Shown: positions 1,568-56,188 of the stretch, one piece after another
How the letters are laid out: each line of letters opens with the position of its first letter
How positions within the stretch are numbered: the stretch's first letter is position 1
Assembly: GCF_009756665.1 (NCBI RefSeq)
Contig: NZ_CP037953.1
Span: 248,001-312,000, forward strand
Source: Permianibacter aggregans
GTDB taxonomy: Bacteria > Pseudomonadota > Gammaproteobacteria > Enterobacterales > Permianibacteraceae
DNA: 64,000 bases
Reading direction: 5' to 3'
Notes under the pieces: generated by a model
What the model was told of the DNA's origin: nothing
The model's database searches: none
The model's input: only the letters and a program-made list of their open reading frames with translations
Translations under genes and position numbers: made by a program

Positions 1568-2524
<957 letters not shown>

Positions 2525-2550
2525 TCGTTCCGTATAATCGATAGCAACCC

Positions 2551-2588
2551 CGTCGCAGCTTTATGGACTAAATTAAAGCTGCGGCGTG
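2551..2588 (+). terminator. Hairpin after trxB, likely terminator
   Basis: Perfect 10-bp stem CGCAGCTTTA (2554-2563) / TAAAGCTGCG (2574-2583) followed by a weak T run (GTGTTT). It lies between trxB and aat. The poor T tract lowers confidence. Confidence 0.5.
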
Positions 2589-2625
2589 TTTCCCCGCCGT
2601 CAGCGAACCGCTATACACTGACGAT

Positions 2626-3354
2626 ATGAAGCAACGACTGACGCTGATTGACGGCGATATTCCCTTCCCTGCCCCGGCCAATGCCATGGCTGAACCGAAC
2701 GGCCTGTTGGCTGTTGGCGGTGATTTGTCACCGAACCGACTGCTTGATGCCTATCGTCATGGCATTTTTCCCTGGTATGGCCCGGACGATCCGATTCTTT
2801 GGTGGTCACCGGACCCACGGGCGGTATTTCAGGTCAACAATTGGCAGCCGAACGTCTCACTGAAAAAAGCGCTGCGCAAACAGCAATTTGATGTCTCGCT
2901 CAATCAGCAATTTGATCACGTCATTGAAGCCTGTGCCCGCACTCCGCGCCCCGGCCAGGACGGCACCTGGATCACCCGTGATATCCAAGCAGCTTATAAA
3001 CGGCTGTTCCGTCGTGGCTCAGCATTTTCAATTGAAGTGACCGCCAACGGTCAATTATTCGGCGGCATGTACGGAGTACATATCGGCCGTATGGTCTATG
3101 GTGAATCGATGTTCAGTTGGCAAACCAACGCCTCAAAATATGCGCTCGCCGCGCTGCTATTTTGGATGAAACAGCAGGCGTTGCCATTGTTGGATGCACA
3201 AGTGGCCAATGCCCATACAACGATGCTCGGCGCCAGCCAAATGGCGCGCGAGGAATTCCTCGATCATGTCGCGACACTCTCCACGCAAACCGTGTCGAAT
3301 GAATGCTGGCAACCCCGTTCATTAACACCATTGTTGTGTGGTGATTCACGATGA
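2626..3354 (+). CDS. aat: Leucyl/phenylalanyl-tRNA-protein transferase
   Basis: Transfers Leu or Phe from aminoacyl-tRNA to proteins with N-terminal Lys or Arg, creating a primary N-degron that ClpS recognises. The 242-residue protein has the family core near residues 33-70 (GGDLSPNRLLDAYRHGIFPW, then a WWSPDPR segment) and the GGMYG segment near 145. Its stop overlaps the next gene's start in an ATGA, so the two transferases are probably translationally coupled. The ClpS and ClpA genes lie 1-4 kb away on the other strand. Confidence 0.95.
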   Translation: MKQRLTLIDGDIPFPAPANAMAEPNGLLAVGGDLSPNRLLDAYRHGIFPWYGPDDPILWWSPDPRAVFQVNNWQPNVSLKKALRKQQFDVSLNQQFDHVIEACARTPRPGQDGTWITRDIQAAYKRLFRRGSAFSIEVTANGQLFGGMYGVHIGRMVYGESMFSWQTNASKYALAALLFWMKQQALPLLDAQVANAHTTMLGASQMAREEFLDHVATLSTQTVSNECWQPRSLTPLLCGDSR

Positions 3355-4070
3355 ATGCACCGGAAAAACAATGGCGTTTACCGCTGCTGCTGACCATGGA
3401 GTCGGAATGCCCTTACCTGCCGGAGCAGCAGTCGCGGAATGCTTTTGTCGACAGCGCCATAGCAATCTCCACCGATTTGTATACCGTGCTGCTACACAAC
3501 GGTTTTCGCCGTTCAGGAACCGATATTTATCGTCCCTACTGCAAGCAATGCCAAGCCTGTATCCCGCTGCGCGTCGTCGTCGACGCATTTCATGCCAACC
3601 GTAGCCAGCGACGCACCGCCAAGCGCAATCAGGATTTGCAGTGGCGTATCGAAACGCCACCACTGACTGACGCCCACTACCAGCTTTATGCCCGCTACCT
3701 GGAAGCCAGGCATGCAGATGGCGGCATGTATCCACCGGACCGACAGCAGTTCGACCGCTTCCTGACTGCAGAATGGGCTGATACCGAGCTGGTTTGCCTT
3801 TATCAGGATCAGCAGCTTGTCGGCGTCATGGTTGCCGACCGGGTGTTTGATGGCATATCGGCAGTGTATTCGTTTTTCGAACCGGAGCTGCCCCGGCGCA
3901 GCCTGGGCGTTCAATTGGTGTTGAGCCTGATCGACTACACCCGCTCACTGGGACTGGCGTATTGTTATCTCGGTTATTACATCAGCCGCTGCGCTAAAAT
4001 GAACTACAAGGCGCAGTATCAACCGGTGGAAGCCCTGCTTGACGGCAAATGGGAGCCGTACCAAGTTTGA
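3351..4070 (+). CDS. bpt: Aspartate/glutamate leucyltransferase (Bpt/ATE family)
   Basis: Bacterial homologue of arginyl-tRNA-protein transferase. Bpt enzymes add Leu to proteins with N-terminal Asp or Glu, extending the N-degron pathway. The 239-residue protein shows the N-terminal ESECPYLPEQQSRN block, a Cys pair in YCKQCQAC near 64-69, and a C-terminal LGYYISRCAKMNYKAQYQP block typical of the family. It overlaps aat by four bases. Databases often label it arginyltransferase (ate); the Leu specificity is family knowledge, not visible here. Confidence 0.92.
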   Translation: MNAPEKQWRLPLLLTMESECPYLPEQQSRNAFVDSAIAISTDLYTVLLHNGFRRSGTDIYRPYCKQCQACIPLRVVVDAFHANRSQRRTAKRNQDLQWRIETPPLTDAHYQLYARYLEARHADGGMYPPDRQQFDRFLTAEWADTELVCLYQDQQLVGVMVADRVFDGISAVYSFFEPELPRRSLGVQLVLSLIDYTRSLGLAYCYLGYYISRCAKMNYKAQYQPVEALLDGKWEPYQV

Positions 4071-55871: not shown

Positions 55872-56188
55872 AGGGCCTGTTTACCTTTGCCACACCGCTG
55901 CGACGGAGCCGCCCGTTGCGCAGTGGTCGCGCGCGTTCCTGACGCGCTTGCGACACTTCCCACTTCCCTGTGGGGCGCAGGAATGAGAAGCGTGGTGTAC
56001 TTGACGTACATGAGCGACGAATGACGCCGCAATGCGCTACGGGCGGCCCGTCCCTTTGGGTTGCGCCCAGAAAAGCGCCATGCCGCGTTGCTCGTTGTTC
56101 ATTTAGCTCACTAAACTTCTCTCCTCGCGTCTTGCCTGGCACTTTTCTGGGCGGCAACGCTGTGGCGTGGCAAAGATAAACAGGCCCT
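55872..56188. mobile_element. MITE-like element with terminal and nested internal inverted repeats
   Basis: 317-bp, GC-rich segment. Its ends are inverted repeats of about 25 bp that begin AGGGCCTGTTTA and continue CTTTGCCAC, with two mismatches. Inside are two further near-perfect inverted pairs: 55908-55922 with 56033-56047 (one mismatch), and 56061-56079 with 56138-56157 (CCCAGAAAAG core). Open frames crossing it (both strands) look like repeat-derived shadows, not genes. There is no transposase, so it would be non-autonomous. No clear target duplication was seen. Confidence 0.75.

Follow-up and report, generated by a model that had tools for sequence, protein, structure and literature searches.

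MITEs are usually regarded as passive hairpins. Several small bacterial repeats are treated in a review (PMC2229807), in the available part of which ERIC/IRU/RU-1, Correia/NEMIS and RUP appear as small folding repeats bounded by terminal inverted repeats (TIRs), whose targets are duplicated and whose termini carry TA, and the MITE families covered measure ~100-200 bp. Apart from CIR, the repeats in that part each form a single end-to-end stem-loop and lack arms and linker. CIR, found in Caulobacter and Brucella, is described there as two long inverted repeats that make up two arms and a linker; it is ~110 bp long, carries GANTC and has no TIR in the table of that review.

We analysed an element in a window of 64,000 nucleotides, by which we mean the whole stretch of Permianibacter aggregans DNA under study. 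An earlier note on this DNA had placed a MITE-like element at 55872-56188, and an inverted-pair search finds both place and kind to be exact. From sequence comparisons we consider it likely that this is a MITE mobilized by IS5-family transposases, with a hairpin selected for its fold as cargo, carried as an inverted pair, and that the arm most likely acts as RNA.

Element architecture

The unit at 55872-56188 is 317 bp long, and its TIRs enclose two side-by-side hairpin arms. The outer inverted pair (55872-55902 / 56158-56188) spans 31 nt with 87% complementarity, and the inner pairs form the stems of arm 1 (55908-55925 / 56030-56047, 18 nt, 89%) and arm 2 (56064-56083 / 56134-56153, 20 nt, 90%). 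The earlier note had described ~25-bp terminal repeats around two near-perfect inverted pairs, together making three nested levels. All three pairs are present, but the two inner arms lie beside each other and are not nested. The layout is a three-way junction of an outer TIR stem, arm 1, a five-base linker and arm 2, in agreement with the three-armed structure that had been proposed for the RNA. Predicted RNA folds of both strands are better than all 100 dinucleotide shuffles, with z-scores of -8.6 for the + strand and -11.3 for the - strand.

The left TIR (AGGGCCTGTTTACCTTTGCC..., 55872-55902, + strand), located by the inverted-pair search and by copy comparison, is followed by arm 1 (55902-56052), a hairpin with its sense on the + strand that is matched by our arm model R2 (G000:C1:303957-304052 +). 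Arm 1 contains a two-hairpin insert of 51 nt, with approximate borders at 55926-55976 from copy comparison, and a conserved core on the + strand (55977-56029) with internal loops and the apical hairpin TGTAC-TTGAC-GTACA. The inter-arm linker at 56053-56057 reads CCTTT (consensus CCTTC). Arm 2 (56058-56160; R2 match G000:C1:304060-304158 -) is an inverted copy of the same hairpin with its sense on the - strand, and the right TIR (56158-56188, - strand) was located in the same way as the left one. When arm 2 is reverse-complemented it aligns with arm 1, and the two make up a single family with the core CAAGGCnnnnnGAGnGnnGTnTnnT...AnATgAnCGAnnnnnnAACgcCG. The element is an inverted pair of one hairpin, with one sense arm on each DNA strand.

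The element has no transposase of its own, being 317 bp long with four ORFs of at least 60 aa that lack a Pfam match, and a tRNA search of the window found none. The suggestion that such ORFs are probably mis-annotated as small proteins found no backing where it could be checked: no annotated feature lies under the plasmid matches described below, which is weak evidence, as the plasmid gene table is incomplete and one record holds a single feature. The flanking genes are ordinary, encoding a BsuPI-domain protein on one side and an alpha/beta hydrolase on the other.

Copies and distribution

A BLAST search of the element's own genome (4.27 Mb, one contig) for further copies gave 27 matches, which resolve into ten elements with both ends and dispose of the objection that the sequence occurs once. 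Comparison of the ends shows that the TIRs are kept between copies, and the 20-base TIR, with up to three mismatches, is found in this genome at element ends only. R2 gives 19 matches here, corresponding to eight two-armed elements, two one-armed elements (L008 and L010) and one weak isolated arm. TA stands on both sides in 10 of 18 copies from this genome and the related genome G002, a count that omits the bare TIR palindrome L059; the window copy has TA on the left and TC on the right.

The 51-nt insert of arm 1 is missing from L007, L009 and eight G002 elements of alignment A1. The same two-hairpin module (GTCGCGCGCGTT..CCCTGTGGGGCGC, window 55926-55976) also occurs within a different repeat of the GTCATTCCCGCG type in the same genome, and in the sister species G001, for which no element was matched, it occurs either free or as tandem copies (loci L016, L023; L045, L047, L049). 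It has the look of a further small repeat, one that uses other repeats as insertion sites. Another insert, of ~67 nt with several hairpins (AAAAACGCCGGGAGCG...GGGATGTGTCGAAC), lies in the arm 2 loop of L003, L005 and L006. Reduced derivatives were also seen: L008 and L010 have one arm and keep both ends, and L059 is a bare TIR-TIR palindrome. The one-armed copies imply that two arms are not required for persistence. Genome G267 contains TIR pairs at C28:154657-154704 (48 bp apart) and at C16:54918-55085 (168 bp apart).

In a set of 59 genomes that includes the element's own, matches were found in three, namely this genome, G001 and G002. Only the 51-nt inserted module matched in G001, which belongs to the same genus, and G002, from another genus of the same family, has eight elements with 73-90% identity. 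Plasmids from Azotobacter chroococcum, Pseudomonas aeruginosa and Halomonas carry relatives of the same layout. No match was obtained for the window element against plasmids, for L044 against phages or for L060 against E. coli genomes. A covariance model of the element interior (R1) was run on two samples that overlap in part and have the element's own genome in common. In the class sample of 274 genomes, 72 give matches at E≤1e-3, and in 61 of these the match reaches 1e-6 or better; in the phylum sample of 299 genomes, 67 give matches at E≤1e-6. Of the 67, 46 lie outside the class, 37 of those in one family; per-genome copy numbers from R1 are lower bounds, as no more than eight candidates were scored in each genome. 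A strict one-arm pattern run over genome contigs found 88 stretches, the carriers being Candidatus Thiodiazotropha and other clam symbionts, Chromatiales, Thiohalobacter, Nitrosomonas and other gammaproteobacterial MAGs.

Ninety loci were examined, with the best-scoring row kept for each (46 of 92 rows of alignment A3 and 44 of 87 of A4); this rule applies to the counts of model-fitted pairing, consensus, wobble, neighbour orientation, TIRs and size. Sufficient flank was available for 86 loci; TIRs were placed by script in 80 of these, and three of the six misses (L001, L002 and L004) do have TIRs that were overlooked because of the arm 1 insert. Both arms are present in 13 of 13 elements of genome G180 and in 2 of 2 of G299. 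The interior is bounded by differing TIRs: TAGGGCCTGTTTACC in the element's own genome and TAGGGCCTGTTAACACTA, TAGGGTCTGTTGACGTTT, AGAGCCTGTCTATGAATAAA, TTAGAACTCATCTCAAAAATA, TAGGGAAACACTGATTGATG, AGGGCGTGTCGTCATGAG and others elsewhere. Some of these TIRs resemble the ends of DDE_Tnp_1 insertion sequences (ISs) in the same or other genomes (TAGAAGCCATCTCAAAAA, CTAGGGAACCTCTGATCAAT).

Mobility and the cognate IS

G180 carries 13 elements, three of which are identical letter for letter over 266 bp and lie at different sites. TA flanks both sides of six of the 11 elements with placed ends, the ends of the other two (L254 and L259) not being found. The same genome contains five IS copies of 807-808 bp, 99.6-100% identical to the query copy, all five flanked by TA/TA and each with a DDE_Tnp_1 match; the one copy whose full sequence was analysed has two ORFs, DUF4096 and DDE_Tnp_1, which together correspond to the NF033580 IS5 family. 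The TIRs of the IS (GGGCGTGTTAACACTA) and of the best-preserved elements (GGGCCTGTTAACACTA) differ in one base in 16. BLASTN finds these 16-bp ends alone to be common to element and IS, all other matches having E of 1 or more, and this implies that the element is not a simple internal deletion of the IS. The search with PF01609 covered 30 loci; ends were examined in 22 and R1 was run on 22, and the R1 scan, with the G180 IS (L095) among its 22 IS loci, found no arms. The idea that the arms are remains of the IS was therefore ruled out, since the IS is armless and shares only its ends.

By these comparisons a cognate IS is established in G180 only. In the element's own genome none was found: the single DUF4096 IS has another TIR, TAGAAGCCATCTCAAAAA, and of eight DDE_Tnp_1 matches the three examined do not fit the element ends. 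A search for IS ends in G226, G079 and G139 was without result. IS630 was considered as a partner, as it adjoins the element in L063, but its ends differ. In that locus an IS630-family IS is apparently inserted exactly at the CTAG end of the element (L063:1925-2178 and 2180-3365), which looks like a chance insertion at this CTAG. In L060 an element directly adjoins sequence that is also seen at the end of this IS630-family IS.

An empty site is seen in a pair of related genomes. G226 has both flanks of the G079 element (95% and 94% identical) and lacks the element, and G079 is longer by 267 bp, which corresponds to 2 bp in addition to a 265-bp element that starts with GAG and ends with CTC. 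With GA on one side and TA on the other as flanking dinucleotides in G079, the duplication is imperfect. The empty-site comparison is thus available for this pair, but the flanks of the window copy have no DNA match in G001 or G002 and offer no comparable site there; none was obtained for the plasmid elements either. Copies, TIRs, TA-flanked insertions, the cognate IS of G180 and the G079/G226 site all favour the non-autonomous transposon that had been suggested earlier, and on the sequence evidence of TIRs, dispersed copies, missing transposase and an empty site in relatives the element is classed as a MITE. Strong covariation and wide distribution would also suit a conserved host RNA gene that merely lies between inverted repeats and is not mobile. 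This is barely credible, as it is contradicted by identical copies at different sites, by TA flanks and by the empty site, and neighbouring genes differ between copies.

Genomic placement

Crude ORF calling at 77 loci, 13 of the 90 being omitted for short flanks, found no ORF that spans the element. The neighbouring ORFs are codirectional at 47 loci, divergent at 20 and convergent at 10, with element borders taken as the model match plus 28 nt, which is ~50 nt short on one side for three insert-bearing copies of the element's own genome. Among the codirectional loci, arm 1 lies on the gene strand in 21 of 47 (21 versus 26). The flanks of L044, a G002 copy, read like one interrupted coding region.

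Element ends tend to lie near gene borders. In 72 elements with a TIR score of at least 15 and at least 600 bases of flank, excluding the window copy, an ATG-initiated ORF of at least 100 aa begins 0-6 nt from 15 of the 144 ends; 4 and 9 ends fall in the two following 7-nt bins, and the bins from 21 to 279 nt average 2.0. Ten of the 15 start-adjacent ORFs were compared with Pfam, and each has a family match that exceeds the cut-off. The start-adjacent ORFs, housekeeping genes among them, include CCA-adding enzyme, L-aspartate oxidase, NusB, sulfate adenylyltransferase, a RIO1-like kinase, ATP synthase subunit a, SMC (cut by the locus end) and a response regulator. Several of the ORFs align with an NCBIfam model from the first residues, so their start codons look right. 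Examples of start-adjacent ends are L130, L137, L144, L054 and L048. Stop codons also cluster at element ends, and TA targets together with short intergenic gaps may therefore explain much of the clustering. The G079 element (L065:1472-1739, compared with the empty L265) separates the start codon of the ATP synthase a gene from its ribosome-binding site. At only 6 of the 15 start-adjacent ends, versus 27 of the 129 other ends, the far side of the element has a ribosome-binding-site match of 4 nt or more. In 10 of the 15 cases, read by eye, an AGG in the TIR end itself stands 4-10 nt ahead of the start.

Conservation of the fold and strand asymmetry

The compensatory changes looked for in the arms are present. 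In a MAFFT alignment of 14 interiors (A2), 94.8% of 923 cells are paired and 37 of 66 pairs change on both sides, with a covariation of 0.389 compared to 0.134 in shuffled alignments (0 of 500 reach 0.389) and at most 0.110 in slid controls. The alignment of 42 arms (A5) is 96.1% paired, and 25 of its 29 pairs change on both sides; here covariation is 0.774 compared to 0.210 in shuffled alignments and at most 0.175 in slid controls, all these controls allowing only partly for shared descent. In the model-fitted alignment of 46 loci, which leans to structure by construction, 2842 of 3022 cells pair. The mismatched internal loops CAAGG / AAC and GAG / CGA are kept across genera while the surrounding stems change. 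By eye, the loops could be interpreted as tandem G-A pairs (GA opposite GA) with G-C pairs on either side. CsrA-type GGA sites were considered and dropped, as GGA is not conserved, and a kink-turn, taken to require a three-base bulge, was dropped because the arms have no such bulge. Rewritten stems around kept loops are a signature used to find functional RNAs.

An alternative is that the element is a plain MITE whose arms are old, functionless palindromes, complementary through template-directed palindrome correction. In the available part of the review cited above (PMC2229807), long stem-loops are described for the transcripts of known bacterial MITEs. Arm loss is seen in derivatives within the P. 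aggregans genome, with GGGCGGC repeats bordering the loss in L008. Palindrome correction would, however, erase mismatches, and the retention of CAAGG / AAC and GAG / CGA amid rewritten stems argues against it in its simple form, as does the unequal occurrence of G-U and A-C mismatches on the two strands (see below). We consider functionless arms improbable. The covariation together with the conserved mismatched loops instead suggests selection on the fold, and the arm fold itself appears to be preserved across many Proteobacteria while the letters of its stems change.

Mismatches in the stems are distributed unequally between the strands. Read on the sense strand, the two arms together have 240 G-U and 80 A-C cells, and the direction is alike in both: 148 G-U versus 38 A-C for arm 1 on its own strand, and 92 versus 42 for arm 2 on its own, opposite strand. 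These counts omit, in each arm, the one pair that is G-U in half or more of the sequences, and the roughly 3:1 excess rests on related sequences in a model-fitted alignment. The model reads the strand opposite to that of arm 2, so its bias works against the arm 2 excess. Counted per locus (n=90), G-U is in excess in 61 versus 9 for arm 1 (20 ties) and in 43 versus 13 for arm 2 (34 ties); we claim no probability for this, because the loci are related. The TIR stems served as a control and show a milder excess in the opposite direction, with 48 G-U versus 78 A-C on the arm 1 strand in elements with a TIR score of at least 15. From the excess of G-U over A-C we infer that selection would act on the folded sense strand of each arm, one per DNA strand.

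The earlier note had also proposed a structured RNA. The structure is supported by covariation, and it may be that of RNA or of single-stranded DNA. The relevant fold could be single-stranded DNA or a cruciform: the arms would fold on either strand during replication and the TIRs would pair as the third stem, aiding the transposase or a host factor in finding or processing the ends. Several features suit such a role, since the element is mobile and near constant in size (264-280 bp in 76 of the 80 whose TIRs were placed), either strand can fold because it holds one sense arm, and orientation relative to codirectional neighbours is even. G-T wobble is tolerated in DNA too, so the strand asymmetry does not separate RNA from DNA. 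The IS with similar TIRs is armless, however, and its transposase thus needs no arms, and one-armed copies with intact ends exist. Overall we find a DNA fold somewhat unlikely; the conserved folded core would probably act as RNA and possibly as single-stranded DNA.

Discussion

The observations suggest the following mechanism. IS5-family transposases would act in trans on the terminal repeats of the MITE and insert it at TA-like targets. The interior would be separate cargo and not a leftover of an IS, as it holds one hairpin twice in opposite orientations, and selection would keep the hairpin fold on the sense strand of each arm. With one sense arm per strand, a two-armed insertion shows one correctly folded arm in either orientation. 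The arm most likely acts as RNA in transcripts that read through the element from genes nearby, where it could for example bind a host protein or nuclease that renders insertions tolerable.

A broader reading can be offered only tentatively, and we hold it less firmly than that of an IS5-mobilized MITE with hairpin cargo. In this reading, the elements may form a widespread, undescribed mobile family of structured RNA (or single-stranded DNA), with a hairpin resembling protein-binding ones, internal loops that are purine-rich and conserved, and an inverted pair that works either way. Carried on many different IS5-type TIRs, it might make insertions at gene borders tolerable to the host, even those between the ribosome-binding site and the start codon in housekeeping genes. 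Stems are rewritten and loops kept across many bacterial families, in an element whose ends are those of different IS5-like transposons in different genomes. If the core is functional, selfish DNA has spread one structured motif through much of Pseudomonadota, and the purpose of a MITE interior becomes directly testable.

The two-arm element appears to be undescribed, as far as literature and Rfam searches indicate. In freely accessible literature, ISfinder not included, no published description was found by TIR or core letters or by subject words, judged on titles and the openings of abstracts, and the available part of a later review (PMC10969869) contains no such element. Rfam 15, searched with the window and 32 loci, has no family at gathering score over the element, three matches lying outside elements; at E up to 5, all 14 matches in six loci fall below the gathering score.

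Among described systems, the MITEs of Thiomargarita (PMC4853749) have a different layout, judging from their description. ERIC/IRU/RU-1, Correia/NEMIS and RUP, as far as the available part of PMC2229807 describes them, resemble the present element in being small, TIR-bounded and folding, with duplicated targets and TA at their ends. The element differs from them in that it is a two-armed junction, mostly of 264-280 bp, found in many genera with changed stems. IS5-family ISs (DUF4096 plus DDE_Tnp_1, NF033580) share its class of TIR and its TA-flanked insertion sites, but they have no arms, and the element has no transposase. CIR, according to the same part of PMC2229807, has in common with it two arms joined by a linker. 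In the present element, however, TIRs close a third stem around the arms, and it therefore falls outside the CIR class.
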